Below, piece by piece: positions 42,950 through 58,442 of a stretch of 64,000 bases of DNA (position 1 is the first letter of the stretch; each line of letters opens with the position of its first letter). This DNA comes from Lachnospiraceae bacterium A4 (GTDB lineage Bacteria > Bacillota > Clostridia > Lachnospirales > Lachnospiraceae), in assembly GCA_000403215.2 (NCBI GenBank), contig KE159527.1, positions 258,114-322,113 of the forward strand, in the 5' to 3' direction. Below the pieces are notes generated by a model, which saw nothing but the letters and a program-made list of their open reading frames with translations, did not search any database and was not told the origin of the DNA. The position numbers and the translations under genes were made by a program.

Positions 42950-43354
42950 GAATTTCCCCACACCGTAACCCCTCATAGAAAGGAGCTTTCCGCACATCAG
43001 CTAATTGAGTGTAACCAAAAGTATAACCAACTTGTCAACCGCTTGTTTACGCTTTTATTCAACAAACTGGAATTCTGATAAGACACTTTTTATAGGATTT
43101 ATTAACTGTTATATCTTATCTGCAAAAAATCTGCAAACCCTTGAAAATGCTAAATTTATAGCGAGTGAGTTTGCCCTTAGACTTTCCCTTGTGTTATATC
43201 CTTTTCCCTCGTGTTACGAACCCTCATAAGGGCAAAAATAAGGGAAAGAAAAACCTGTAACAAATTATAACATGAAATGAACAGGACAGGAAGAATTGAT
43301 TGGAATGCTTTCACAAATTTCTCCAAAATACAGACAAGAAAGGACAGATAAGAT

Positions 43355-43594
43355 ATGAGATTTATATATGCAGAATACAATATGTACCACAACAGCGTTG
43401 ATGTAACAACCTTTGACGGATATATCCTACGGATTGACTGTAATGTAGCAGAAGATAGATTACGGACTACTCCCCGTTCTCAATGTGCGCTAGATGCTTT
43501 AGCAATAGACGAACCACTTGAATATGCCCGATTAACACTTGATGGCAACTTGCAGATATGGGTAGATGCAGAGGATGATTTAGAAATTTGGTAA
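43355..43594 (+). CDS. DUF6061-like small protein
   Basis: 79 residues; AAAGGA lies 12 bases upstream. The pattern A-E-Y-N-M, then V-D-V-T-T-F-D-G-Y-I-L-R-I-D, then L-D-A-L-A-I-D-E-P-L-E-Y-A-R-L and D-G-N-L-Q-I-W resembles the small DUF6061 proteins common in Clostridial mobile regions. Function unknown. It lies at the left end of the integrated element, beside a transposase fragment. Confidence 0.6.
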   Translation: MRFIYAEYNMYHNSVDVTTFDGYILRIDCNVAEDRLRTTPRSQCALDALAIDEPLEYARLTLDGNLQIWVDAEDDLEIW

Positions 43595-43601
43595 TAATAG
43601 A

Positions 43602-43946
43602 GTGCTGGCTGTTCTGAATCTGACTGGTGAATGCCACAGTCTTTCCTATGACGCACTGACTGCCCATACAGCAATCGTGTTTACCAGATATATGCTGCTT
43701 GCTTTGGAGTAGCACAGGAATGAAGATCAGAGGACTCTGGGGGAGCTGTTCTTCTTTCTTGTAGATGAAATGGCGGATATAACATTCTCACATTCCCTTT
43801 GTATCCTGATGGAAGCAATGATGGCAAGTCTTCATGATATCCTGAAACTGAGCAATGAGCAGATAGCAGATTTTACTGCAGATTTTGAGAAGCGTTTACC
43901 AAAATATCTTCAAAAAGCATTACATCCAGCAGCAGTATCGGCATAA
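43602..43946 (+). pseudogene. DDE transposase C-terminal fragment with in-frame stop
   Basis: The frame reads L-T-G-E-C-H-S-L-S-Y-D-A-L-T-A-H-T-A-I-V-F-T-R-Y, then a TAG, then H-R-N-E-D-Q-R-T-L-G-E-L-F-F, and ends in F-E-K-R-L-P-K-Y-L-Q-K-A. The Y-D-A-x-T-A-H-T-x-x-V-F-T-R-Y-M and R-T-L-G-E-L-F pattern is the C-terminal end of IS4-type transposases found in Lachnospiraceae. The N-terminal part is absent. Confidence 0.6.
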
Positions 43947-44116
43947 ATACTGTTTTGTTAGCTGAAATATTGAATTTTCGAGGTACGAAGCCCATTTAAG
44001 ATATGGGAAGTCTTAGTAATTAATATACAAATTAGAATACTGATTATAGATATCCAGGAAATAGTATTTCGTTTCTTATTATGACTTCCTGTTCTCATTC
44101 AGTATCCCTCCTATCT

Positions 44117-45181
44117 CTACTTAATTAAAAGTCTTTCAACTGCTCCGAGCCTTCCACCACTCCTATTAACTGAATGCTCAAATTTAGATATCAAAGCACC
44201 TATTTCCATATTTGAACATTTATTAAGTGTACTTCTATCATAAATACCAGACATTACCGTAATATTGTCTTCAACTACATGGACAACTACTTTATTCACT
44301 GGTAGCAACGCCATTAAATCTCTAGCAACTCTAATCGAAATTGCAGCAATCAAGTTTTCAAAACTACTATTATTAACACCACCATCCAACAGATCATTTG
44401 CATTATGTGAAAACTCTACCTCTATATAACTTGGTTTATCCGTGCCAAATTCAAAGTTTCCGCTGTATAATAACAAATCATCAACGGGTCTTAATTCTTC
44501 TATTGCTTTTAAATAAGCATCTATGTTTCCACTCAATATATCTGGAGCTATTTTTTTACAGAACTGCCAAACATCAGGATTTATTAATAACTCGTCAGCT
44601 GTAGCACCACCTAATATCTCTGTCCATTCGATGGTTGCATCACAATATCTATATATATTTTTAATATCTTCCTCTGTAAGATTTATTTTCTTGCTTTCAT
44701 CGACATTCCCAGGCTCCAAAGAATCCGAATAATCCCATGGTATTTCACTACTGTCTATATCTATAAGTTCTGAAAATGCACTTGTCCCACTAGAAGAAGT
44801 TGCCACTTCTCTCCTGTCTACACTTCGACTCGCCTCTGGAATATCAACATATTCAGACTCATTATCATATATTGAATCCATCGAAACGAGTTCATCATAT
44901 CTTTGCAAATCAGATTCTTCGGGTACCTTTTTTCTACCAAACAGACCATTGGTTGCTCTACTTGGTTGGGTACTCCTATTTTGTTTTTGTCCACCAATCT
45001 TTTTTGTATCTGTATAATAAATACCTGTTCCCGGAAGGCCAACGGTTGTTGTGACTCTACCACTGGTACTTATAGTTTTATGATATCCTTTTGTTCCAAG
45101 AGAGACACTCATCCCAGTTTTACTGAAATTCAACTTGACCCCTTTGCACAAGGATACACTTTTTCTGAATCGTAATCCCAT
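44117..45181 (-). CDS. DUF4236 domain protein, last gene of the phospho-signalling operon
   Basis: 354 residues from the ATG at 45181, 8 bases after ATGGAG; the frame extends 10 codons into the phosphatase gene. The N-terminal 60 residues are the DUF4236 pattern: G-L-R-F-R-K-S-V-S-L-C-K-G-V-K-L-N-F-S-K-T-G, then T-V-G-L-P-G-T-G-I-Y-Y. An acidic Ser-rich linker follows, then a C-terminal domain of about 200 residues (E-W-T-E-I-L-G-G-A-T-A-D-E-L) that I do not recognise. DUF4236 proteins are often found with phage-related and conflict genes. The operon has 2 bases between this gene and PP2C. Role unknown; substrate or effector is possible. Confidence 0.8.
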   Translation of the reverse strand: MGLRFRKSVSLCKGVKLNFSKTGMSVSLGTKGYHKTISTSGRVTTTVGLPGTGIYYTDTKKIGGQKQNRSTQPSRATNGLFGRKKVPEESDLQRYDELVSMDSIYDNESEYVDIPEASRSVDRREVATSSSGTSAFSELIDIDSSEIPWDYSDSLEPGNVDESKKINLTEEDIKNIYRYCDATIEWTEILGGATADELLINPDVWQFCKKIAPDILSGNIDAYLKAIEELRPVDDLLLYSGNFEFGTDKPSYIEVEFSHNANDLLDGGVNNSSFENLIAAISIRVARDLMALLPVNKVVVHVVEDNITVMSGIYDRSTLNKCSNMEIGALISKFEHSVNRSGGRLGAVERLLIK

Positions 45182-45183
45182 TC

Positions 45184-45927
45184 TTATCTCTCCATTATCA
45201 ATACTGAACAATCATCGCTGGATCCAAGTTCTTGAGCCTTTTTCCATAGTTTAACTACTCGTTCTTTTATTGGTATAGGTTCACACAGTATTTCTTCAAA
45301 AGTATCTATATCAACGTAATCATGTATTCCATCTGATGTCATAATCAATGTATTTGGAATAGACTCCATTAAAATTGTTTCTACAGATAACATTTTAAGC
45401 AAATCATTGTCCCCTCCACCAAAACACGAAATAATCTCGCTTTTATTACACATTTCAGCAGCTTCGTAATTTCCTTGACGAATCAACCATTGATATGTTG
45501 TGTGGTCAGATGTTAACTGTTTTAAATAGTTTCCTTGCAACGCATATAATCTGGTGTTGCCAGAATGAGCTATTTTCAAGCCTTCATTACAAAAAAATAC
45601 GCCTGTAAATGTAGTTGCCATTTGTTCTTTTCCGGCTATTTTTTGTGCATTGTCTATCAAGCTTATGTTTGCATCTTTCAATAACAACTCTAAAGCGGCC
45701 TCATCATCTGTTTTCTCATAATTACACTGTATATAGTCCAACAAATAAGTACTAGCTTCATGCCCTCCGGCATTACCTCCTACTCCATCGGCAACTGCAA
45801 ACCATGAACTCTCAATTTTTTCAAATACAATAACCGCATCTTGTGAGATAATATTTTCTCCATTAAAAACACTATCATCGCATATTTCTTTTCCAATACC
45901 TGTTTTTACAAGCGCAGTAACTATCAC
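45184..45927 (-). CDS. PP2C-family Ser/Thr protein phosphatase
   Basis: Removes phosphate from Ser/Thr using two metal ions. About 247 residues from the GTG at 45927; an alternative TTG at 45951 overlaps the AAA gene. Metal-binding motifs are C-D-D-S-V, F-A-V-A-D-G-V-G-G-N-A-G-G, M-T-S-D-G-I-H-D-Y and G-S-S-D-D-C-S-V. No membrane segment. It is in one operon with the kinase (50340-52025) and FHA protein (48399-49025), so it most likely reverses that kinase. Confidence 0.92.
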   Translation of the reverse strand: MIVTALVKTGIGKEICDDSVFNGENIISQDAVIVFEKIESSWFAVADGVGGNAGGHEASTYLLDYIQCNYEKTDDEAALELLLKDANISLIDNAQKIAGKEQMATTFTGVFFCNEGLKIAHSGNTRLYALQGNYLKQLTSDHTTYQWLIRQGNYEAAEMCNKSEIISCFGGGDNDLLKMLSVETILMESIPNTLIMTSDGIHDYVDIDTFEEILCEPIPIKERVVKLWKKAQELGSSDDCSVLIMER

Positions 45928-45935
45928 GAAATCAC

Positions 45936-47801
45936 CTATCTCTCCGAGCAAACAAGTGAGTATGGCATTTTTTCAGCATTAATTTGCTCAATTACTATTT
46001 CCTTATCTCCAAAAATCTCATTATCAAACATATATCTAGAAAGAGGATTAATGAACAAGCTCTCAACAATGTTACCTATTCCTCTACCACCATTTTCAAG
46101 ATTTCCAAGAGCTGCATCTTCCAATGTTTTCATTGCAGAATCTGAAATAGAAATTTTAATGTTCTTTTCAGACTGTACATTCTTAACAATCTTATCTATT
46201 TGAGCCGCCAAGATGGATTTTGCAACATCTGGTCTAATAAAATCAAAAACAACTATATTCTCACCAATTCTATTAAGAATTTCTGGTCTGCCTAACTGAA
46301 GCTTAAAATAATCTTCGATACCCTTTCTCACATTTTTCTGCACTTCTTCATAAGGCATATCTGGATTAACTCTTTGGACTCTTTCGCCCATATTATTGGT
46401 CGAATATATTCCTAAGTTGCTTGTGAAAATTATTATTGTTTCTGAAAAATAAACTGTATTACCTTGACCATCCGTCATTCTTCCATCCTCCAATATCTGA
46501 AGAAATTTGTCTAAAATTGACGGATGAGCCTTCTCAATCTCATCAAACAACAAAATTGAAAAAGGATTATTCTTTACCGCATTTGTAAGCTGTCCACCCG
46601 CTTCGTAACCCACATATCCAGGAGGCGCTCCTAATAACTTTTGATCACTGTGTGACTGACCATACTCACTCATATCAAAACGAATGCAATTATGTTCATC
46701 ACCAAACAATTTTTCAGCCAATGTTTTTGCTGTTTCTGTTTTACCCGTACCTGTTGGTCCCGCAAAAAACAACACTCCTTTGGGCTTACCAGAAGATTGC
46801 ATCCCAGACATTCCAGTCATAGCTCTCTTTATTACATCTAATGTTTTTGTTAATGCTATTTCCTGTCCTTTTACTCTTTTTTCGAAGTCAGCATGAGCAT
46901 TCTGCATTTCTTGATATTTGAGTGTATTCCATGGATTCTCTTTAATTCCAAACTTATACAAATCTACAACATCACACATATTTTTGATGTGAATTTGCTG
47001 ATTTTTTGATAATCTTCGTAATCCATTTAGTTCAGTAAAAGTGAATCCTTCTGTTAATGCGACAAATTTATCTTGTATTTTTTCAAGTTCGTCTGGATGT
47101 TCTTGATAGTAAGCATTTTCTTCTACAAAGATATCACTTGCAAAAAAGCTAGGGAAATTGGCTCCTTTAACTAAAGCCTCACGTTCCTCCTTTGATGGAG
47201 TTTTCAGCAAAATCGTTTTTACATTTGGATTGTCCAAATAAAACCAAGCTGGCAAATCGTTAATCTTATTAACAAGAAGTATCACAACATTTTTTAGTAT
47301 TCCATTTTGGGTTCTGACATCTTTTCCTTCAATAGAGGCCTGTAATAAAATTGTAAAACTATCAATTTCCGACTGCTCCATATTACTAGGAGACGCAATA
47401 TATCTAGATGCAAAATCCATTACCACAGCTGTAGCTTCATTTGCTTGTGAGATAGCTTGCTTAACAATATTTGAAGCCGTGCCATTTCGTCCCTTAAAAT
47501 CGGCCCTTATATGTTGATCCTCAAGACTCCCTCCAACCAGTTTTGCAAAATTTTGAATATAGCCATCCTCACAATTGTTGTAGAATCCTCTTATGCTATC
47601 GTAAAATGCAATATTTTGATATCCAGCATCCTTAAAATAATAATGAAGATATTCAACAAGCCTTAATATGCTACCTTTTTGAACACTTCCATCTGTTGGA
47701 TATTGGTATTTATCCAACACATTTCCTTCAAGAATGATTATAGGTTTAATCTTATCAAAGATTTCTAATTCCCTATGCCACTTCGGAATAAAATCACCCA
47801 T
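45936..47801 (-). CDS. ClpB-like AAA+ ATPase with a degenerate N-terminal ATPase-like domain
   Basis: 621 residues. The C-terminal AAA_2 module has Walker A G-P-T-G-T-G-K-T at 348-355, the pore-type loop G-Y-V-G-Y-E near 395-400, Walker B I-L-L-F-D-E at 416-421, and sensor T-S-N-L-G, followed by a ClpB-type small domain (G-R-P-E-I-L-N-R-I-G). Residues 1-300 look like an AAA fold (I-I-I-L-E-G-N, A-V-V-M-D-F, V-V-I-L-L-V-N-K) but lack a P-loop. It differs from ClpB/ClpC in lacking the N-domain and a ClpP-binding loop. It overlaps the radical-SAM gene by 8 bases. Likely an unfoldase/remodeller acting on an operon partner. Confidence 0.88.
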   Translation of the reverse strand: MGDFIPKWHRELEIFDKIKPIIILEGNVLDKYQYPTDGSVQKGSILRLVEYLHYYFKDAGYQNIAFYDSIRGFYNNCEDGYIQNFAKLVGGSLEDQHIRADFKGRNGTASNIVKQAISQANEATAVVMDFASRYIASPSNMEQSEIDSFTILLQASIEGKDVRTQNGILKNVVILLVNKINDLPAWFYLDNPNVKTILLKTPSKEEREALVKGANFPSFFASDIFVEENAYYQEHPDELEKIQDKFVALTEGFTFTELNGLRRLSKNQQIHIKNMCDVVDLYKFGIKENPWNTLKYQEMQNAHADFEKRVKGQEIALTKTLDVIKRAMTGMSGMQSSGKPKGVLFFAGPTGTGKTETAKTLAEKLFGDEHNCIRFDMSEYGQSHSDQKLLGAPPGYVGYEAGGQLTNAVKNNPFSILLFDEIEKAHPSILDKFLQILEDGRMTDGQGNTVYFSETIIIFTSNLGIYSTNNMGERVQRVNPDMPYEEVQKNVRKGIEDYFKLQLGRPEILNRIGENIVVFDFIRPDVAKSILAAQIDKIVKNVQSEKNIKISISDSAMKTLEDAALGNLENGGRGIGNIVESLFINPLSRYMFDNEIFGDKEIVIEQINAEKMPYSLVCSER

Positions 47802-48408
47802 TGTTTGTCTCCTCCAATCCCATTTTATTCATCAAATCATTTAGTTCCTGTTCGTATCCCCGTCTATGAATTCCCACAGAAATCACACCGTCAGTTGTTG
47901 TAAAATTTTGTATCTCATTCTCTCCATTTATAAGATAGTTATCATACATATCCTTATAACTTTGGTTTAATACAATGATATTTTGGTTAGTTGAACCTTT
48001 CATAAAACAGTTCTCATTTTTTTCTTCGATGTATTCCCCATCGATTAAAACTGCTATTTTTTCTAAAATAGAATGATGTTTATCATTCAAATAATCAAAT
48101 TTGTAACCCGAATATATAATTATGTCTTGAGTAATTGTGGATAAATAATTTACTAACTTTTCCAAATCTTCTGCCTGTTCAAAAGGATCTCCACCTGTAA
48201 TTGTAAACCCATCAACCTTATGATGTTCTGTTATTCTTTCAATTAACTTAATAACATTTTCTAAAGAGACCTTGTACCTATCCTGTAATTCCCACAATTC
48301 CGGATTACTACAACCTTTACAAAAATGAGTACACCCATTGAACCAAATACCTACACGGTTGCCCGGACCTAAAACTTTTACTGGATACAACAATCTTGCT
48401 ACGTACAT
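47794..48408 (-). CDS. radical-SAM activase-like protein (NrdG/PflA-type)
   Basis: 204 residues. The [4Fe-4S] motif C-T-H-F-C-K-G-C (C-x3-C-x2-C) follows G-I-W-F-N-G, and the SAM-binding G-G-D-P-F-E-Q-A is in place. This is the short radical-SAM form typical of anaerobic ribonucleotide-reductase or glycyl-radical activases. No glycyl-radical enzyme is nearby. A C-terminal tail beyond the usual NrdG end (G-V-I-S-V-G-I-H-R-R-G-Y-E-Q-E-L) may bind a partner. It overlaps the FHA gene by 10 bases and the AAA gene by 8, so production of the three is tightly coupled. Target unknown; perhaps it modifies a protein of the same system. Confidence 0.88.
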   Translation of the reverse strand: MYVARLLYPVKVLGPGNRVGIWFNGCTHFCKGCSNPELWELQDRYKVSLENVIKLIERITEHHKVDGFTITGGDPFEQAEDLEKLVNYLSTITQDIIIYSGYKFDYLNDKHHSILEKIAVLIDGEYIEEKNENCFMKGSTNQNIIVLNQSYKDMYDNYLINGENEIQNFTTTDGVISVGIHRRGYEQELNDLMNKMGLEETNNG

Positions 48409-49025
48409 GAACCAATTCTAATCACAAAATATGCAGCCTCATTTTGACGTTGTCCATTTTGTGAATTACCTCCTAATCCTATTTCATCTCCATCTTTTAA
48501 CTCTTTAGGATTATCATCTTCTATTTTTACATTGTTAATATATGTATAATTTGTTTTGCTAAAGTTGAAAACATACAACTTTCCATCTATAATTTTGAAT
48601 TCCGCATGTCTTCTACTGACATATGACTTATCTCCCAAATAATCCTGAAGTTCATTCTCACGTCCAACAACGGTTGATTCAGAGACGAATTCATAAGCAA
48701 AAGATCCATCCAAACTAGAAATAATAAATTTGTTTGTTTCTTCTGTTTCCGCCTCATCTGGTGACGGAACAACCATCGAAATATCCTCTCCGCAGCTTTG
48801 ACATTTTCTACTTTGTACAGGATTCTTAAAACCACAATCACACAGACGAATCATCTTAGCTGTAGAAGAAGAAACATTTTCTTTTGAATTCTGTTCAGAT
48901 TGCGCTTTTTCTGTGTCTTCATCTAAAACACGTGTGCTTGATAAATCAGTTTCACACTTCGAACATTCCAACATATATGGTTCATTATGTTCTCCACACA
49001 CAGGACATATTTTATACTTTGCCAT
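48399..49025 (-). CDS. FHA-domain protein with two zinc ribbons
   Basis: 208 residues. Two zinc-ribbon-like Cys sets come first (C-P-V-C-G...C-S-K-C and C-D-C-G...C-Q-S-C), then an FHA domain: S-T-V-V-G-R-E, V-S-R-R-H-A-E-F-K-I and Y-I-N-N-V-K-I. The G-R, S-R-R-H and N residues that read phosphothreonine are all present. FHA domains bind pThr peptides, so this protein is the natural reader of the kinase two genes upstream. Cytoplasmic, no membrane segment. Confidence 0.92.
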   Translation of the reverse strand: MAKYKICPVCGEHNEPYMLECSKCETDLSSTRVLDEDTEKAQSEQNSKENVSSSTAKMIRLCDCGFKNPVQSRKCQSCGEDISMVVPSPDEAETEETNKFIISSLDGSFAYEFVSESTVVGRENELQDYLGDKSYVSRRHAEFKIIDGKLYVFNFSKTNYTYINNVKIEDDNPKELKDGDEIGLGGNSQNGQRQNEAAYFVIRIGSCT

Positions 49026-49031
49026 ATCTTA

Positions 49032-50327
49032 TCATTCGTCCTTTCTTAAATATCCTTGGGTAGCAGTTGACTTATGAGTTTTTTTAGCCTCATAGCTTAC
49101 CACATCCTCTTTCATACAATAGTCTGAAGTGTTTATTATTTGGGCAAATTGTGCTTCGGGTGGCAAAATAGACACACGATGACTTACTATACCCATTGCC
49201 CTCAGTTTTTCTTCAATTTTTAAATAGTCATCGCAAAACGAAACCATATCTTGTGCCAAACTTTGGCATTCAGCTTCACTTGGAATTCTGTCCTGATCAT
49301 CTAATCCACCTAATTCCATAGTAATCTGTCCTTCATCGCTATACGTAACATTTACAGCAGTACCTTCATCGAACAGGTACAATTCATTTGTAAATCTTCG
49401 GCCATCCTTTCTAACAACTTCACGATTGCCAATGACCTTGTATCCCATTTCCTGCATTGCTTTATCAACACATTCACTTATGTACTCTTGTTCTTCTTTT
49501 CTTTGAATTATTTTTTGCATATCCTGAATTTCTTTTTCTAATTCTTCAATGCTCTCTAAAGAAAAGGAAAACTGCTTTTTAGGAACACCCAATTCACCAA
49601 CTAGCACTTCATACTCTGCACATAATTCTTCAAACCTCGCTCCATACTCTAAAAATAGGGAATTATACGCTTGGCACTCTTTCAAAAACGGTATAATTGA
49701 CATTGCATAATAATTCTCTATAAAATCTATACTATCTATTTCAGCAGCCTTTTCCTTTAGTACTATGAACTTAGCTCTTAATTCATTAGAAATTTGAAAT
49801 CCTCTAATTTCTTCCAATGCTGCATCAATTTTCGAAGTATAATCCGACATATTAACCGCTGGAAGTTCTTCCTCTATCCTTATAAATGAAATTGTGAATC
49901 CTTCAGAAATTGCAGCATTAATCTCTTCTCTGAATTCTTCATCTGCCTTTCTTAATTCGGATGACATTTTCACTTCGCCATCAGACAACACCTTCGTCAT
50001 TTCCTTTAATTTTTTATTTGTAGACTCCATCACAGACAATCCACTTTTTTCAGAAACAGTTCCGGCATCATTTAGGATTTGCATAGCCTTATTTCTTACC
50101 GATTCAAGAGTGTCTATTTCAAAAGTACTTTTTCCAGTTTCAGAAACTATTCTTCTGAATTGTGCAATTTCTGTATCAACCTTTGAAACTATCTCTTTCA
50201 ACCCAGCTACATTTTGCTTTAGCATAACCGTATTTTTTTGAATCTCTCGCTGAATTTGTCTCTGCTCCGCTAAAATCCTTCTCTGCTCGGGTGTCAATGT
50301 ATATCGAGAAGTTTTAGGACCACTCAT
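49032..50327 (-). CDS. coiled-coil protein with MSGPK...LTPEQRR N-terminus
   Basis: 431 residues; the start follows TAGGAGGGAAAAGAT. The first residues, M-S-G-P-K-T-S-R-Y-T-L-T-P-E-Q-R-R, form a distinctive motif I associate with proteins beside FHA/kinase genes in Clostridia (from memory, not checked). Residues about 25-280 are long coiled coils. The C-terminal 150 residues look globular (Y-K-V-I-G-N-R-E-V-V, D-E-G-Q-I-T-M-E-L-G-G-L) and unrecognised. T-S-R-Y-T in the N-terminus could be a kinase target. A scaffold role is suggested by position between the kinase and FHA genes. Confidence 0.8.
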   Translation of the reverse strand: MSGPKTSRYTLTPEQRRILAEQRQIQREIQKNTVMLKQNVAGLKEIVSKVDTEIAQFRRIVSETGKSTFEIDTLESVRNKAMQILNDAGTVSEKSGLSVMESTNKKLKEMTKVLSDGEVKMSSELRKADEEFREEINAAISEGFTISFIRIEEELPAVNMSDYTSKIDAALEEIRGFQISNELRAKFIVLKEKAAEIDSIDFIENYYAMSIIPFLKECQAYNSLFLEYGARFEELCAEYEVLVGELGVPKKQFSFSLESIEELEKEIQDMQKIIQRKEEQEYISECVDKAMQEMGYKVIGNREVVRKDGRRFTNELYLFDEGTAVNVTYSDEGQITMELGGLDDQDRIPSEAECQSLAQDMVSFCDDYLKIEEKLRAMGIVSHRVSILPPEAQFAQIINTSDYCMKEDVVSYEAKKTHKSTATQGYLRKDE

Positions 50328-50339
50328 ATCTTTTCCCTC

Positions 50340-52025
50340 CTAATTTAATACTTTCTGTCTCCATTGCTCTATTTCTTTTCTCTTACCTAGGGCAACAAGC
50401 CAACTCTCGAACTGACAATCTAAATTACCATCATAATCAACAAGACTATGACAGAGTTCTTGAAAATCATCAAAAGACTCATCTACCATTTTTTTCATAA
50501 ACTCGTTTAATTCACCAACTGTTCTAAAGTCCTTGTCTCCAATATGCATAAGTTTCTGGCCAGAAAGCATATATCCTGTCATATACAAGTTAATTCTTCT
50601 ATCGCGCCCGCTAGTATAGGCTCTAAATGATGATTCTAGACTTTCCACAGCTTTAAGCATCTGTGTATTTTTTGCATCAAACTGTCTAACATATGCAGAG
50701 AAAATAGAGTTATTAAAGATTTCTGTAACGTATGAATTTAAGCTTTTATCGTCTTTCCATAAATGTTCTAGCAAATCTCTCCCTAATGCTGGAAGACTCT
50801 GATACACTCGACCTTTCCAATAAAACTCTGTGGTTTTTGGATTCAAAGCGTACATTGTTGACCAAAAAATCATATCATCTTTTCCACTTTGTCTAGTTGC
50901 ATCCATTTCGGCCTTCCTACATATATTTTCAGCTGGTTTATCAAATCTTCCAAAATACTGTGAAAAGTTACCACGAAACAGTTGTTTCTTTCCATCATCC
51001 CAATTTTCAACAAGAGCTCGAACTAATTCTTCTCGTTTTATATACTTCTTTCCTTTGAACTCAAACGGAGGTATTTCCTTCCTATCAATACCTTCGCCGG
51101 GTATAGTTTGTTTAATACCACTGCACCATTTTTTTACTTCGTCATAGCCCCATCGTCTATTAGGATTCTCTTTGTTCTTACGATTAGTAATATCATAGTA
51201 TGTTAATGCAATTATGAGTTCCTTTAATTCTTGTGGCATATTTGATGGAAAAGGAATTCTTTGCACTGAAACATATTTTTCAATTTCTTCTTGTGGCATA
51301 TTATCATATGGTGTTTTTCCACAATATAATTCATAAATGGTTATACCCATAGAATAATAATCGGATTCACTCAAAAATAAATCTCTAAATGTTTCGGGTG
51401 CCGAGTACTGTGGAGTCATACCAGTTCTAGTAACAATTACCGTGCTACCCGATTCAACAGCTGAACTTATACCAAAGTCTATAATCGCTATGCTTTTTCC
51501 ACCTTCGGTAATCATAATATTTGAAGGTTTCAAATCTTTGTGAATGATTCCATTATCGTGCATAGCCTTAAGTCCATTATTTAAACAAGGGATTATCACA
51601 TTTTTTAATTGATCTAATTCTAGTTTCTTTCCTTGCAGGCTTCCTATTGGGTAATATGGCATTACTTCAACAGTTGTCCCATTCCACTCACCCATATCAC
51701 ATATTGGTGCGACATATGGGGAAGAAATATTCTTCAATTTTGCAATTACATCCGGCTTTATCGACATTTCTCTTCGATACACTTTTGCTACATACTTCTT
51801 ATTACCATGCTCACATATGTATAAATCTGCCTCTCCTGATTTAACTTGCATTTTTTCTTTGACCACATATTTTTCGCACAGAACTGTCCCCACAGAAATA
51901 TGTGTTCCAGAAACACTTCGATTAATTACAGTTGCATTGCCATTAGAGGGATTAACATTTCTATTAATCATAGTGACATTACTTCCAGATTTTATATTTT
52001 TATTTATTTCTGTTACATTTGCCAT
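50340..52025 (-). CDS. Ser/Thr protein kinase (Hanks type)
   Basis: 561 residues; the start follows GGAGGGATAATAA. The kinase core spans about residues 50-310: Lys in Y-V-A-K-V-Y, catalytic H-K-D-L-K-P-S-N, D-F-G-I-S-S and the activation-loop end Y-S-A-P-E-T. The Gly-rich loop is poor. Before it are three short repeats, N-V-T-E-I-N-K-N, N-V-T-M-I-N-R-N and N-A-T-V-I-N-R-S, which look like Thr phospho-sites for an FHA reader. The C-terminal 250 residues (Y-I-K-R-E-E-L-V-R-A-L) are an unknown helical domain. No PASTA or membrane segment, so cytoplasmic. It lies 3 bases after the helicase gene. Confidence 0.93.
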   Translation of the reverse strand: MANVTEINKNIKSGSNVTMINRNVNPSNGNATVINRSVSGTHISVGTVLCEKYVVKEKMQVKSGEADLYICEHGNKKYVAKVYRREMSIKPDVIAKLKNISSPYVAPICDMGEWNGTTVEVMPYYPIGSLQGKKLELDQLKNVIIPCLNNGLKAMHDNGIIHKDLKPSNIMITEGGKSIAIIDFGISSAVESGSTVIVTRTGMTPQYSAPETFRDLFLSESDYYSMGITIYELYCGKTPYDNMPQEEIEKYVSVQRIPFPSNMPQELKELIIALTYYDITNRKNKENPNRRWGYDEVKKWCSGIKQTIPGEGIDRKEIPPFEFKGKKYIKREELVRALVENWDDGKKQLFRGNFSQYFGRFDKPAENICRKAEMDATRQSGKDDMIFWSTMYALNPKTTEFYWKGRVYQSLPALGRDLLEHLWKDDKSLNSYVTEIFNNSIFSAYVRQFDAKNTQMLKAVESLESSFRAYTSGRDRRINLYMTGYMLSGQKLMHIGDKDFRTVGELNEFMKKMVDESFDDFQELCHSLVDYDGNLDCQFESWLVALGKRKEIEQWRQKVLN

Positions 52026-52028
52026 TTA

Positions 52029-55000
52029 TTATCCCTCCAATAGCTGTACTCGTTCATCAGATACCCTAACGATTCCCTGCTTTTCTAATGATTCGATTGC
52101 CTCAAGCATTCTTTGACGTATCTTAGCGCCCGTCTTTTCAAATCCAAAAATTCTCGCTGTCTCCAAAATCAAAGATGGTACTTCAACGCCAAATGCACCT
52201 GATAAAACTAATTTCATTGCTTCTTCTATTTCCTTTAACGGAATATATTCAATATTTCTATCTGGACTTCCAGCAAGAGAACGTCTAACTTTTATTCGAG
52301 AAAAATCAGAAAGCGTTATAAAACTATCTCTGTCAATTTTTATTTCGCCTGACATCTTTCTCTTTAGAACATAATCAACACTATTCCTGATTGGGGCAGT
52401 TACCTTCTCATTTCCAAAGCAACCTGCCATTCTCTTATACAAAAGTTCCAAGTGAATTGGCTGCTCAACTCTAATCACTTCGTGCATTCTGTCAGCAATT
52501 CTTGATTCATTATCATTGGCCCTGTATGTTGTAACATCCCACCAATGACCTTCTTGATACCTATCAAGATTATATGGATTATTCTGATTAATAGGTTGAA
52601 CATTCTTATTTGACGAAATTTCTTCTGTCTCAACTTTAATCTCTTCATTTTTTCGCTCTATCGTTTCAAATTCAGAATAATTCTTTAATGCATCTGTGAT
52701 AAAATCAATTAATTTCTGTTTTGCCACCTGCTCGTTTTGAATCCACTCAGTAGACCAAACTCGATACATCTTCCAGCCCATTCTCTCCATAACAGATACA
52801 CGCAAATGATCTCTATCACGTACAGTTCTTGCCATTTGATATGAATCACCATCACACTCTATACCAGCAATATATGCGCCTTCAATTTCAGGATGCTCTA
52901 TGGCCATATCAACCGTATAATCTGATGTTCCTATATTGCGCTTAACCTTATATCCTCTACTTTCAAGGAAAAGTGCTACACTTTCACTAAAAATATCAGT
53001 TTCATAAAGTCTATTTTTCTTCTGTACAGGACTAGACTCTCTAACGGTTCTAGATGCAAATTCAATATATGTTCTCAACATCCTAACACCTTCAGATTTA
53101 GTTTTATCCAAATCTATATCCTCTGGTTGAATGGATCCAACAAGTTTTACATTATATTTTGCTCTAGTAATGGCAACATTGAGTCTTCGTTCTCCTCCTT
53201 GATGCCCAAGAGGACCAAATCTCATGAACATTCTTCCTTGAGAATTCTTTCCATAACAAATAGAGAAAATAATAGTATCTCTCTCATCACCCTGCACGTT
53301 TTCCAAGTTTTTAATAAAAAATGCCTCTTCTTTTTCTTCTGAAAAGAAACCATCATACTCTCTATGCTTCTTTCTAAATTCTTGAACGGCATCTTCAATT
53401 GTACTCTGCTGGCTTTCACTAAAAGCAATTATTCCTAGTGACCTCTCCGGATGTTTTTTGATATGTTGCTCGATTAATTTAACACAATATGCTGCCTCTT
53501 CTTTATTGCACCTATTCTCATATACACCATTTTGCACATAAATATATTCAACACCAGAGTCCGCTTCGTTCACTTTACTGCTCGGAAATGTAACTAAATT
53601 ATTTCCATAAATTTCTCTGTTTGAAAAAGAAATCAAATCTTCATATCGGCTTCTGTAATGCCATAGCAATGATCTGTTCGGTATTGTGTTTGTAGCTTCC
53701 TCCAAAATAGAATCAGAGATGATTTCATCATAATCATCGTCATCTGAATCGTAATCCGAATCATTGTTAGTACTAGCCGCAAAGAAATTTGTTGGTGGAA
53801 GCTGTTTGCTGTCACCGGCAATAATAACCTGGGCTCCCCTAAAAATTGCTCCAATAGCATCTTGCGGAAAAATCTGCGAAGCCTCATCGAAAATAACCAT
53901 ATCGAACTTATATGTATCTGCTTCCAAAAAATATGAAACAGAAAGTGGAGACATCATCAAACAAGGTTTCAACTTAAGTAAAAGATTTGGTATTGATTTG
54001 AATAACTTTCTTAATGGCATTATTTTTCTCTTCTTGCCCAATTCATGAATCAATACCGACATCTCATCTCCCGTTCTGTTGAACATAGACTTGTCTGGCA
54101 TTCCTTCTATTAATTTTTCCCTTATTCTCATTTGTGCAACAGGCAACTGATGTGTATCTAATTCTCTGAATTTCTCAACATTATCAGAATGAATTCTTGC
54201 ATTGAACCCTCCAATTGCCTTTACATCATCAGCTCTATCTCCAATCCATGCATAATAGAATGCCTTTAAGAACACCCTATTTAACTGACCTTCTGGGAAT
54301 ACAATATCTTCTGACTGCTCAACAAATTCTGTGAGACCATTTTGTTCGCAAGACGCTTTACACTCCCTATAGTCAATCCACAAATCCATAGTTTCAAACT
54401 GATCCACACATTTGTTTAATTTATTTGCAAATTTTTCAAAATTAGTAAATCCCGGTTTAATATCAGCATTAAACAACTCGATAAAAGCATAAAAGAGACT
54501 CTTTTTACTTATAATTTCTGCAATATATTTTTTTATCTCTTCTACTTCATTTCTTTTACCCTTATTAGAAATAAATTTGAGCCATTCTATGCTAACACCA
54601 GTTTTTTCAGGCAATGCCACAAACTCTTCGAAATTAGAAATTAAAGTTTTCAATGAAGCCCAATTGGTATCTGCATTTATACTCGCAAATGCAAATTTCT
54701 CTCGTGCAGATTTCAAAAGAGTTTCATAATTTGCTTTCATCAAATTATAATCCTGCAATTTACTCATATCTGCTTTTATTTCTGTATACGATTTATTTCC
54801 CTTCAAATATGCTTCAATACCTGCGATTTCCGATTTAATTACTGATATTATTCCCTGTGAATCCACAATTGAATCATTCATATCTACAAGTCCATTTTTA
54901 GAAACATTTGTAAACTTATTTGAATAATCCCGGACAGCATTTATTAATGTCTTGGTGCTATCCACTTCTGACTCTGTCAGTACAGACGCTGTTACTGTCA

Positions 55001-58000
55001 ACTGTTTTCCAAGCAATTCTTCTCCCCTATGTTCTAATGCCTGCATCTCATCCATAAGGTTCAAACACTCTGTTAATTTTTTAAGTAAAGCAACATTTTC
55101 TTCATATGATAATCTCTTATCTGCACTAACAGACCTATTTTGTATCTTACTAGCATCTTCCATATAACGAGAATTAAGGAGTTCTATCAAATCAGACTTA
55201 ATTTCACTATATGGTCTCGTACCAATAACCCATGACTCTATAATTTTTATTTCTTTTATTACTTCATCCACTGCACTTATAGAACCATTTATACTTTCAA
55301 TTGTTGCCACAATTCCTGTATGACTAATAGGAGAATACATCTTTAATAATTCTTCTCCAGATGATATAAGTTCCTTCACAGTCTCAACTTCCTGTAAAGA
55401 TAAAACTGAGTCGATGTCATTGAACTCTGCCACATTCAGTATTTTAGCAGCTTTACCAAGTTCATTACTCTTTACTTCAAGAAGAGCTTTTCTTTCTCTT
55501 AATTTTTGCAATAAAGCAATAGCTTCTTCATTCGTTATTTTCTTTTTAACGTTCTTATATCCAAGACGTAACTGTTTTATATCCTCCCTGTATTGCTTTT
55601 TGAATATTCTAAAAAATCCTGTATATTCAACTTTAAAGCGATTAAGCATATTATCCACATCAATCTCAAATATACTTTGCTCACATTCACCTAGGATTTC
55701 ATTTTCTAATTTGCTTATTTCTTCTTGTAATCTTGTTTTCTCAAACAAAACCGTACACACATCAAGGAATAACTGTAATTTCTGAATAGTATCATTAGAA
55801 TTTGACGGCATATATGCAACATTCATTTTGTCAAAATATACCTTCAAATCCGCATAAGTAGCATATAATTTCTTTAAATCAGAACTAATATCATCATATT
55901 TTTCATAAATAGAATCATCCGAAAAATCATCTCCAATTTGATGACGAACATTTATACATGCGGCCTCAAAAGATGCATAAAACTCCTTATTTATGCCGAA
56001 GACTGTCTCATCATATCTCTCGATAATTTTCTTTATTAACGATGCATAATCAACTTCAAAACGATTAAGCATTTCAACAGCTTCTATATCAAAAATGTTG
56101 CTATTATATCCTTCAAGAATACCTGCTTCAATTTCTTTAATATGGGCAGAAGTCTTTTCCATTTTTATCAAAATTCCGCAGACTTCAACCAAGCCACAAA
56201 TGTACTTCAAAGAAGAATCTGTGTTTTGATTACAATAAGCAGTATTCATTTTGTCATAAACGGCTTGTAACTCTATTACTGCTGTTTGAAAAGCTTGTAA
56301 CTCTTCGGCCAATTCAGAATATTGTTGAAACAGAACACTATTAGTATAATCCTTTCCTAATAGTTCTCTTGCGACATCACAAACACCTTCATAATTTGCC
56401 AAAAATGATATTGGATCAATATCAAATATTGACTCTTGATATGAGCGTACTATTTCCTCTATCTTATTGCCGATTGCATCAATTGTACTTTCAAGTTCAG
56501 AAAGCAATCTCTTTTCTTGTGTTAAGTCTTTTCCAATCCATTCACTTGGAGCGTCTGAACATCTATCCAACAAAGAAAATGCTTGATAGTATGCATCAAT
56601 ATTATCTAGACTACATATAGCAAGAATATTTTCCCCTTCAACTACGCAAGTATTAGGTACTCGACTCAATATCCACTGGAGTGTGCTCATCTTTTCTTTT
56701 AATTCTTCTTTTTGCACATTACCTAATCGTGAAATCGTGATTCCTTGCCATGGGTTTTTATACCACTTTTCTCCCAACGAACCTCTTGTCATCTCAAGAT
56801 TTTCAACTAAGAGACCCATTCTATTTACTTCATCTTTAGAATAATCTCCAATTCCATCTAATGTTAATCTAACAAATGGTAAATCCTGTAACTCAGCAAT
56901 TGCTCCATAGACTTCATACAAACTCATCTCAATAGGCATTATTGTCTTGTGTATATCCTCTACATAGCACTTAAGTCCGTCTCTCAAAACGTCTAATCTA
57001 GTTAGCTTTGCAATTTCTTCATCTTTAACTTTTATATGCTTTAAATTCAGATTTTGTCCGAGTTGCTCCAAAATCTCCTTTTTATTCGCCTTATGGCTAT
57101 GGAGAGCCAAGCAAAAATCTGCTAGATGAACCTCTTCAAGTCGTCTGTGTACCACTTCAAGCGCTGCCATCTTTTCTGACACAAACAATATCTTTTTGCC
57201 ATCAGCCAACCCTTGTGCAATAATGTTTGTAATCGTTTGGCTTTTTCCTGTTCCTGGAGGTCCTTGCATAACAAAACTGACGCCCTTCTGCGAGAGCAGA
57301 ATCGCATCTTGTTGGCTAGAGTCCGCATCTACAACTTGATATAACTCACTTGCTTTCTCTTTATCGTGATCGAAATCGATTTCCGAAATACGGTCTGTAT
57401 TTAATGCTGTTGTATCTCCGGCAAATGCCTGAATAATTGGATTATTTTTTATCTCTTCCTCATTGTTGAGAATATCCTTATACATACTTATCTTTAAGAA
57501 AGATACTAATCCTAAACTTGTCTCTCTTAGGACTCTCCACCCTCTTACATCTACTAACTGCTCCATTTCAGACATAAAGTCCTCAAGAGAATTCTCGTCC
57601 GGGTCAAATTCTGGAAGTGTAATTCCATAATCACATTCAAACAAATATGCCAAAGTAGGATTAACTACTAAATCATCCTCATATTTTTTAAGTACATATG
57701 GAGCATTCAACGATTCCAAAACAAGGCTGACAGGAACTAAAATTAGTGGTGATTTAATCCAATTATCCTTGCTTCCTTTTTCTCTCCATTCAACAAATCC
57801 GAACACTAAATATAAAATATTAGTACCCTGCTCATCCAACGACAATCTAGCCTTATTTCGCAAATCTTTTAATGTCTTTTTTGATTCTTCGACTGTTCCT
57901 GCTGCTTTGATATCTCCCAATCTAACCTCAACAGGTGCTGAAAGAGAGTCCATAAGTGATAAAACAGAATAAACTCTTATATCTGAATCCTTATCAATAG

Positions 58001-58187
58001 CCTTTTGAAATGTAAGTTTCTCTTCTTTCACAACCAAACGATCATACAAGCCTTCAAAACTTGGTTCAAGTATGCGTAGAGTAGCCCTCTTGGTCTCTCT
58101 GAAGGAAATCATTTTATTTCTTTTTCCTAAATCGAGAAGTTGGTTTTCCCAATATTCAACTTTCTTATTAATCAACTCTGTATTCAT
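52029..58187 (-). CDS. giant DUF4011-SF1 helicase-Vsr/MTES_1575-like nuclease-DUF3320 protein
   Basis: 2,052 residues; the start follows TAGGAGAATGCC. Order: DUF4011 (about 5-240, W-E-N-Q-L-L-D-L-G-K-R-N), helicase Walker A G-P-P-G-T-G-K-S at 309-316, a coiled-coil insertion of some 900 residues with repeats, and motif II V-I-F-D-E-A-S-Q (about 1430) with G-D-S-K-Q-L-P-P. Then come helicase C-terminal motifs (V-Q-G-D-E-R-D, V-A-I-T-R-A), a Vsr-like nuclease (about 1745-1820, V-D-M-A-I-E...G-I-E-C-D-G-D) and DUF3320 (about 1850-1910). Proteins of this DUF4011-helicase-Vsr architecture have been reported as anti-phage. It is the probable effector of the operon. Confidence 0.92.
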   Translation of the reverse strand: MNTELINKKVEYWENQLLDLGKRNKMISFRETKRATLRILEPSFEGLYDRLVVKEEKLTFQKAIDKDSDIRVYSVLSLMDSLSAPVEVRLGDIKAAGTVEESKKTLKDLRNKARLSLDEQGTNILYLVFGFVEWREKGSKDNWIKSPLILVPVSLVLESLNAPYVLKKYEDDLVVNPTLAYLFECDYGITLPEFDPDENSLEDFMSEMEQLVDVRGWRVLRETSLGLVSFLKISMYKDILNNEEEIKNNPIIQAFAGDTTALNTDRISEIDFDHDKEKASELYQVVDADSSQQDAILLSQKGVSFVMQGPPGTGKSQTITNIIAQGLADGKKILFVSEKMAALEVVHRRLEEVHLADFCLALHSHKANKKEILEQLGQNLNLKHIKVKDEEIAKLTRLDVLRDGLKCYVEDIHKTIMPIEMSLYEVYGAIAELQDLPFVRLTLDGIGDYSKDEVNRMGLLVENLEMTRGSLGEKWYKNPWQGITISRLGNVQKEELKEKMSTLQWILSRVPNTCVVEGENILAICSLDNIDAYYQAFSLLDRCSDAPSEWIGKDLTQEKRLLSELESTIDAIGNKIEEIVRSYQESIFDIDPISFLANYEGVCDVARELLGKDYTNSVLFQQYSELAEELQAFQTAVIELQAVYDKMNTAYCNQNTDSSLKYICGLVEVCGILIKMEKTSAHIKEIEAGILEGYNSNIFDIEAVEMLNRFEVDYASLIKKIIERYDETVFGINKEFYASFEAACINVRHQIGDDFSDDSIYEKYDDISSDLKKLYATYADLKVYFDKMNVAYMPSNSNDTIQKLQLFLDVCTVLFEKTRLQEEISKLENEILGECEQSIFEIDVDNMLNRFKVEYTGFFRIFKKQYREDIKQLRLGYKNVKKKITNEEAIALLQKLRERKALLEVKSNELGKAAKILNVAEFNDIDSVLSLQEVETVKELISSGEELLKMYSPISHTGIVATIESINGSISAVDEVIKEIKIIESWVIGTRPYSEIKSDLIELLNSRYMEDASKIQNRSVSADKRLSYEENVALLKKLTECLNLMDEMQALEHRGEELLGKQLTVTASVLTESEVDSTKTLINAVRDYSNKFTNVSKNGLVDMNDSIVDSQGIISVIKSEIAGIEAYLKGNKSYTEIKADMSKLQDYNLMKANYETLLKSAREKFAFASINADTNWASLKTLISNFEEFVALPEKTGVSIEWLKFISNKGKRNEVEEIKKYIAEIISKKSLFYAFIELFNADIKPGFTNFEKFANKLNKCVDQFETMDLWIDYRECKASCEQNGLTEFVEQSEDIVFPEGQLNRVFLKAFYYAWIGDRADDVKAIGGFNARIHSDNVEKFRELDTHQLPVAQMRIREKLIEGMPDKSMFNRTGDEMSVLIHELGKKRKIMPLRKLFKSIPNLLLKLKPCLMMSPLSVSYFLEADTYKFDMVIFDEASQIFPQDAIGAIFRGAQVIIAGDSKQLPPTNFFAASTNNDSDYDSDDDDYDEIISDSILEEATNTIPNRSLLWHYRSRYEDLISFSNREIYGNNLVTFPSSKVNEADSGVEYIYVQNGVYENRCNKEEAAYCVKLIEQHIKKHPERSLGIIAFSESQQSTIEDAVQEFRKKHREYDGFFSEEKEEAFFIKNLENVQGDERDTIIFSICYGKNSQGRMFMRFGPLGHQGGERRLNVAITRAKYNVKLVGSIQPEDIDLDKTKSEGVRMLRTYIEFASRTVRESSPVQKKNRLYETDIFSESVALFLESRGYKVKRNIGTSDYTVDMAIEHPEIEGAYIAGIECDGDSYQMARTVRDRDHLRVSVMERMGWKMYRVWSTEWIQNEQVAKQKLIDFITDALKNYSEFETIERKNEEIKVETEEISSNKNVQPINQNNPYNLDRYQEGHWWDVTTYRANDNESRIADRMHEVIRVEQPIHLELLYKRMAGCFGNEKVTAPIRNSVDYVLKRKMSGEIKIDRDSFITLSDFSRIKVRRSLAGSPDRNIEYIPLKEIEEAMKLVLSGAFGVEVPSLILETARIFGFEKTGAKIRQRMLEAIESLEKQGIVRVSDERVQLLEG

Positions 58188-58217
58188 GGCATTCTCCTAA
58201 ATCACACATACTTTAAA

Positions 58218-58442
58218 CTAATCATCTTGATTGTCTTTTTTGTTCTTGTTTCTCCAATTTTTATATTCACCAGAAGTCACCCTATTATCCGTAGGTTTTT
58301 CAGCATTAACAGGAATTGCCCATGCTTTTCCAAACTTTGTGACTCCCTTTATTTTTCCTTCTGCACATAAAATTTGAACCGTCCTTGATGTCAGTCCCCA
58401 CTTTTCAGCTATTTCCTTAACTGTTGTATAACCTTCTATCAT
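58218..58442 (-). CDS. small helix-turn-helix (MerR/excisionase-like) protein
   Basis: 74 residues from the second ATG (58442), 6 bases after GAGG; the ATG at 58445 is only 3 bases from it. The wHTH pattern is Y-T-T-V-K-E-I-A-E-K-W-G-L-T-S-R-T-V-Q-I-L-C-A-E-G-K-I with G-K-A-W-A-I-P at the wing. Such short proteins act as regulators or as specificity factors in mobile elements. It is first in the operon, 30 bases before the helicase gene, behind a terminator-like hairpin. Likely the operon regulator. Confidence 0.85.
   Translation of the reverse strand: MIEGYTTVKEIAEKWGLTSRTVQILCAEGKIKGVTKFGKAWAIPVNAEKPTDNRVTSGEYKNWRNKNKKDNQDD

Follow-up and report, generated by a model that had tools for sequence, protein, structure and literature searches.

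What does a radical S-adenosylmethionine (SAM) protein of the kind that activates glycyl-radical enzymes do in an operon without such an enzyme? The question is raised by a short gene in a 64,000-nucleotide stretch of DNA from Lachnospiraceae bacterium A4 (GenBank assembly GCA_000403215.2, contig KE159527.1, positions 258,114 to 322,113 of the forward strand; hereafter the window). It lies in a single minus-strand operon of eight genes, which encode a helicase-nuclease, a kinase, a 431-aa protein, an FHA protein, the radical-SAM protein, an AAA+ protein, a PP2C phosphatase and a DUF4236 protein. An earlier note had described the gene as an activase without a glycyl-radical enzyme, translationally locked between its FHA and AAA+ neighbours and directed at some other target. 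The first part of this description is true of the window, in whose span (C1:258114-322113) a search of the organism's own genome with the Gly_radical family (PF01228) gave no match. The analysis also supports a target other than a glycyl-radical enzyme. Our preferred answer, which we hold tentatively and which may well be wrong, is that the radical-SAM enzyme has a fixed partner in the neighbouring Hsp100-type unfoldase, within mobile multi-gene clusters that resemble defence systems against phages or other mobile DNA.

Pairing with an AAA+ unfoldase

The pairing of the radical-SAM and AAA+ genes across diverse bacteria is well supported. A search from the AAA+ protein identified 12 of 398 genomes in a phylum sample and 6 of 391 in a class sample, one of them common to both (17 in total). 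All 17 carry a radical-SAM gene in the AAA+ cluster, in 15 cases as the immediate neighbour; three genes intervene in G290 and one in G731. Among these searches, four loci were first recognised from the AAA+ side (G016:C39, G131, G677 and G735), and each of them has an adjoining radical-SAM gene. The same arrangement is found on plasmids, where 20 records were obtained and 13 examined, the other seven having AAA+ scores equal to that of an examined record of their species: the radical-SAM gene is part of the AAA+ cluster in 13/13 and its immediate neighbour in 12/13, with a distance of 8.7 kb on a Geminocystis plasmid. In Rhizobium sp. C104 (L149), the radical-SAM gene is shortened, with a frame of 126 aa. 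Both gene orders occur, and the raw gap between the two open reading frames (ORFs), with overlaps counted, is at most 26 bases in 22/25 loci, some called starts being too long. A search from the 431-aa protein identified seven of 391 genomes, and the cluster includes the radical-SAM gene in four of them (G000, G144, G157 and G290); contig G016:C46 ends just past this gene, and G010, a 6-kb contig, appears remnant-like, with neither the radical-SAM nor the AAA+ gene found. The remaining candidate from this search, G336, does not belong to the family.

What stays constant is the partnership with the AAA+ unfoldase rather than with the FHA/kinase set, as shown by the eight clusters of a second type (type 2: L151, L152, L167, L168, L169, L188, L190 and L191), which hold the AAA+ and radical-SAM genes and in which no kinase, phosphatase or FHA gene was called. 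Type 1 clusters contain a kinase, often an FHA protein, a PP2C phosphatase and a 431-aa-type protein in a setting with a DUF4011 helicase; in Caballeronia and Rhizobium, kinase and helicase form a single fusion protein, and gene calling gave no clear FHA or PP2C protein. Type 2 clusters instead combine an SF1-type helicase, a second protein, a protein of about 371 aa, the AAA+ protein and the radical-SAM protein. The second protein carries a PIN domain in six of the eight loci, detected by Pfam in L152 and L188 and annotated in L151, L167, L168 and L169, and lacks a Pfam family in L190 and L191. Thus, the other genes vary, whereas the AAA+/radical-SAM pair stays. Clusters in Geminocystis (L164) and G568 (L155), in which no kinase was called, fall outside both types, as do L154, L160, L189 and L271, which lie on short contigs. 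On viral contigs, none of the 80 radical-SAM loci kept of 159 had a second component, and one of the six AAA+ loci read was a type 2 cluster (L191, an IMG/VR contig). A comparison of type 2 DNA with E. coli genomes gave no site covering 80% of the query, the eight matches listed being clp genes.

The AAA+ protein itself appears to comprise two rings, of which the first, up to about residue 290, is degenerate and the second looks active and has a GYVGY pore loop. A pattern search over 25 loci, chosen with near copies and cut contigs excluded, found no Walker A motif within residues 1-300 in any of the 25 copies and hence no sign of an active first ring. In the second ring, Walker A is present in 25/25 copies, Walker B in 22/25, the pore loop PPGY[VI]G[YF] in 24/25 and the GRG sensor-2 motif in 19/25, and the window protein has all four. 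Its predicted structure (mean predicted local distance difference test score (pLDDT) 71.0; 30-76 by blocks in the first 300 residues) matches the C-terminal domain of ClpB with a Z score of 28.4 (root-mean-square deviation (rmsd) 2.7, 307 aligned residues). Two-ring Clp/Hsp100 chains align with the model over residues 15-621 at a large rmsd of about 8-10, among them a ClpC chain with a Z score of 28.0 over residues 17-621 (rmsd 8.4).

Family, fold and phylogeny

The radical-SAM protein of the window contains the motifs reported in the earlier note, a CX3CX2C motif (CTHFCKGC; C26, C30 and C33) and a GGDP motif starting at residue 72. It matches Pfam Fer4_12 with 110.1 bits (cut-off 22, E 1.3e-31) and, as a member of the superfamily, Radical_SAM (PF04055) with 36.4 bits, above the cut-off of 29.5. 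Since CX3CX2C, GGD/EP and GSxNQ are all kept in 25/25 operon copies compared, these motifs are not there by chance. The gene probably encodes an active radical-SAM enzyme. Comparison with 18 NCBIfam families, a set that lacks QueE, returned the NrdG model TIGR02491 as the best match, with 112.9 bits against a cut-off of 126.1; the PflA model TIGR02493 gave 53.1 bits, far below its cut-off of 231.75, and the PADLOC pVip/viperin models gave no match at E 0.01. The predicted structure (mean pLDDT 78.7, with residues 164-186 and 200-204 not confident) places the activating enzyme of pyruvate formate-lyase (PFL) at Foldseek rank 1 (E 7.5e-6), with a Z score of 10.7, an rmsd of 4.0 and 152 aligned residues. 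QueE is tied with it in this comparison (Z 10.0, less than one Z unit apart), and viperins come next. Family matches and predicted fold thus support the PflA/NrdG-like character proposed at the outset.

The earlier note had named as its refuting outcome a position among ordinary NrdG proteins with random neighbours, an outcome not seen in our trees. Rows shorter than 130 aa (L070 and L119) were dropped, the long-branched L004 was left out of the careful tree, and neither the shortened copy L149 nor the near copies L158 and L009, the latter nearly identical to the window copy, were entered; L060, first counted as NrdG, was regrouped as operon-type after its cluster had been read. In the resulting 74-row tree, 33 operon-type rows and two phage rows form one branch with 99/99 support, and the 39 other rows lie outside it, in line with the proposal of a separate branch for proteins from such operons. 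A clade that unites the 33 operon-type proteins and excludes the phage rows was not rejected by the approximately unbiased test (p-AU 0.4), but it appeared in 18% of 200 bootstrap trees and is thus not established.

Residue conservation was compared between 31 operon copies and 38 NrdG-like proteins, with L030, L031, L068 and L107 left out. Invariant in all 31 operon copies are G14, R18, C26, C30, C33, GG72-73, P75, G101, GS138-139 and NQ141-142, and likewise W22, Q78 and the C-terminal G179, of which W22 occurs in 11/38 and Q78 in 21/38 of the NrdG set. Conversely, N35 and R143 are each present in 38/38 NrdG-like proteins versus 17/31 operon copies, and H28 (36/38) and G44 (37/38) are not the commonest residues at their positions in the operon copies. 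The window protein retains H28 and N35 and has R44 and N143 instead of G44 and R143.

Proposed action of the pair and its rivals

The constant pairing of the two genes in very different bacteria suggests that their products act jointly on a target protein. The activity, substrate, chemistry and product of the pair and its role in defence we infer as follows. The radical-SAM activase of PFL must reach a normally buried chain segment, and an unfoldase could expose such a segment to the radical-SAM protein. The unfoldase would draw part of a protein, either from the system itself or from an invader, within reach, and the radical-SAM protein would abstract a hydrogen from it, as the PFL-activating enzyme does. 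The resulting change, which could be a cross-link, an epimer, a cleavage or a short-lived radical, may then license or trigger an effector, possibly the helicase-nuclease in the window cluster and the helicase, mostly with a PIN protein, in type 2 clusters, with the kinase, phosphatase and FHA proteins potentially serving as the switch in type 1 clusters. A broader form of this proposal is speculative and on balance doubtful: the unfoldase and the radical-SAM protein could form a transferable core, joined to varied sensors and effectors in several immune systems, in which the target is threaded past the active site and its radical modification arms immunity. If true, radical protein chemistry would be a further means of arming bacterial defence, beside phosphorylation, proteolysis and nucleotide signals, and a small set of genes would suffice to test why radical-SAM genes with no known substrate occur in defence-rich regions.

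Several points weigh against a dedicated unfoldase/radical-SAM partnership in defence. The 17 genomes are not all independent, because some of the loci that seeded the AAA+ profile had initially been identified via the radical-SAM or the 431-aa protein. The correlation between the distances of the two proteins (r 0.85 over 25 loci, with none of 2000 permutations as high) speaks for the pairing but is also expected for genes that are inherited together in one operon. The branch also includes the two phage rows (L068 and L107), for which no family AAA+ partner was found; neither these two records gave a family AAA+ match nor the four phage records searched an NRDD match, and the records are possibly fragments. 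It further includes L030 and L031, which adjoin a different AAA+ protein, and bit score alone does not separate the family, given that the scores of G677, G735 and G640 (114.6 to 120.8) overlap those of NrdG. Flanking genes were judged by eye only. The relative from Moellerella (L152) matches the viperin model pVip weakly, at 24.0 and 19.6 bits, and the helicase-nuclease of 2052 aa scores 1261.8 with the ProA model (NF058533), against a cut-off of 1500. The candidate target motif MSGPK is absent from the type 2 clusters and from part of the type 1 clusters, although these retain the radical-SAM gene. Finally, Rhizobium and Acinetobacter are aerobes, which argues against a stored glycyl radical; such a radical is unlikely in these hosts, and we therefore favour either a short-lived radical or a stable change of closed-shell type.

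Other explanations place the role of the radical-SAM protein elsewhere. It could be a sensor subunit that controls the unfoldase through its [4Fe-4S]/SAM state, in response to oxygen, redox, iron or SAM level, and modifies no substrate. The constant pairing with one ATPase at close spacing would suit a regulatory subunit, and the kinase, phosphatase and FHA genes of the window operon make up a signalling system; however, all copies compared retain motifs of the catalytic type and a PflA-like core, beyond the needs of a bare cluster, and we regard a sensor as unlikely. We consider it quite unlikely that the product of the protein is a small molecule or a modified nucleotide, formed in the manner of viperin or QueE and acting as an antiviral product or second messenger. 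A redox sensor and a nucleotide product had both been suggested in the earlier note, and no specific evidence favours either. The tie between QueE and PflA in the fold comparison, with viperins next, and the pVip matches of the Moellerella relative agree with this idea, whereas the sequence models favour NrdG/PflA, the window protein itself has no viperin match and the unfoldase partner points towards a protein substrate.

The protein might also activate a true glycyl-radical enzyme whose gene lies at a distant site of the genome. The genome contains four Gly_radical matches at three loci, as well as 17 Fer4_12 matches. Two of these loci have an activase-type gene nearby (C1:50960 beside the Fer4_12 match at C1:50381, and C23:391142 about 3 kb from C23:388018). 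The third, C11:76573, is a short ORF that carries a glycyl-radical domain, on a contig with none of the 17 Fer4_12 matches, and could accommodate a remote activase. The operon moves between genomes as a block, however, and is found on plasmids of Rhizobium and Acinetobacter; together with the activase-type genes at the other two loci, this makes a remote activase very improbable. There is next to no chance that the protein is an ordinary NrdG, in the operon by happenstance. TIGR02491 is its best NCBIfam match and it keeps two residues near-constant in the NrdG set, but we reject this identity on the basis of the score below the cut-off, the separate branch and the changed NrdG residues, and an nrdG-like gene is already present elsewhere in the genome, beside a glycyl-radical locus. 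The reading that we prefer, a dedicated partner of the unfoldase, is set against the remaining genes of the operon and known systems below.

Operon layout, mobility and related systems

The coordinates of the operon (Table 1) bear out the reported overlaps of the radical-SAM gene with the FHA gene (48399-48408, 10 bases) and with the AAA+ gene (47794-47801, 8 bases). The inference of translational locking, by contrast, exceeds the data, because operon genes commonly overlap by a few bases. All inter-gene gaps are 12 bases or shorter by ORF coordinates, so that a precursor-peptide gene does not fit between the genes of the operon, and this idea was rejected.

Table 1. Features of the window, with positions counted from its first base
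Feature	Position	Strand	Basis
DUF4236 protein, 364 aa, possible accessory gene	44117..45211	-	Pfam
PP2C-type protein phosphatase, 255 aa	45184..45951	-	Pfam, NCBIfam
AAA+ protein, 621 aa, Hsp100/ClpB-like	45936..47801	-	Pfam, NCBIfam, predicted fold, motif patterns
Radical-SAM protein, NrdG/PflA-like, 204 aa, ATG start, C-terminal extension	47794..48408	-	Pfam, NCBIfam, tree, predicted fold
Zinc-ribbon-like and FHA protein, 208 aa	48399..49025	-	FHA 54.2 bits; zinc-ribbon matches below cut-off
431-aa protein, N-terminus MSGPK	49032..50327	-	Coiled-coil-like by eye
Ser/Thr protein kinase, 561 aa	50340..52025	-	Pkinase 105.5 bits
DUF4011 - AAA_11/AAA_12 helicase - MTES_1575 endonuclease-type domain, DUF3320-like end, 2052 aa	52029..58187	-	Pfam, NCBIfam, PADLOC matches
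15.3-kb block, 99.9% identity to Mediterraneibacter agrestimuris contig	43069..58408	.	DNA comparison

The 431-aa protein had no family match in Pfam or NCBIfam. Its MSGPK start is exact in 9/11 aligned rows of this protein type, the rest of the protein being highly variable; as a universal target of the radical-SAM protein, this motif was rejected for its absence from type 2 and some type 1 clusters. Comparison with the type 2 protein of about 371 aa by hhalign gave an E value of 0.0044, yet a probability of 7.8. The true start of the DUF4236 protein is likely MGLRFRKS, about 30 bases downstream of the called one, and the DUF4236 model also has matches near the operon in L033, L148 and L150.

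The block from 43069 to 58408 is 99.9% identical over 15,340 bases to a contig of Mediterraneibacter agrestimuris, with one edge of the match inside that contig and the other at its end. In contrast, a 3.4-kb stretch around the organism's own nrdG matches the M. agrestimuris genome over 556 bases only, at 68%. The high identity points to a recent transfer of the operon block. Transposases of the IS110 and DDE kinds are encoded in the 59-64 kb part of the window, together with a Mob_Pre protein.

Compared with known systems, the radical-SAM protein is closest in sequence to NrdG, with which it shares CX3CX2C, GGDP and GSxNQ, but it differs by its subthreshold score, its own branch, its C-terminal extension with the invariant G179, the lack of a glycyl-radical gene in the window and its occurrence in one cluster with the family AAA+ protein in the examined loci of both types. 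The PflA side carries a GPGxR motif. This motif is also present in the window protein, for which PflA is the best match of the predicted fold, whereas the low PflA model score and the missing glycyl-radical partner set it apart. A further parallel is provided by the activase gene bssD and the AAA+ gene bssE, which are common to sequenced anaerobic toluene degraders, with the function of BssE being uncertain (PMC7285207). As there, a radical-SAM activase and an AAA+ ATPase are conserved in one cluster, but BssD targets a glycyl-radical enzyme, and the likeness is one of description, not of BssE sequence. In a further published case, a vWA-MoxR conflict system includes a radical SAM domain, proposed to modify a peptide (PMC7159879).

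Known kinds of defence include the DUF4011 anti-phage helicases ProA and Hhe, kinase-based systems and viperins. In favour of a defence setting, the helicase-nuclease matches all three of ProA, Hhe and the PADLOC candidate PDC-S37 (1320.1 bits over three stretches, no curated cut-off given), but it stays below the NCBIfam cut-offs for ProA and Hhe, and the window adds kinase, FHA, AAA+ and radical-SAM genes. Both the kinase and helicases give partial matches to MkoA models of Mokosh, a system that is not known to contain the AAA+/radical-SAM pair. In Pseudomonas aeruginosa, the right flank of hotspot cDHS1 has a DUF4011 gene, present in every isolate, and a radical SAM protein (PMC10250203); the likeness to the window, a DUF4011 gene beside a radical SAM protein, is by description, and the setting there is a hotspot flank. 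Among the papers listed by our searches of an open-licence library, none gave an account of this unfoldase/radical-SAM pair.

Some loci show additional features. L030 and L031 encode a radical-SAM relative and a kinase-like protein below the Pkinase cut-off, with a conjugative coupling protein nearby; the different AAA+ protein of L031 is a two-domain protein with AAA_lid_6. The clusters in L033 and L155 adjoin genes for the His-Xaa-Ser radical-SAM maturases HxsB and HxsC, oriented in the same direction, with HxsA3 in L033; HxsB (518.1 and 580.6 bits, cut-off 370) was found in 2/45 loci scanned. Similarly, additional radical-SAM genes adjoin the type 2 clusters in L151, L167 and L188.
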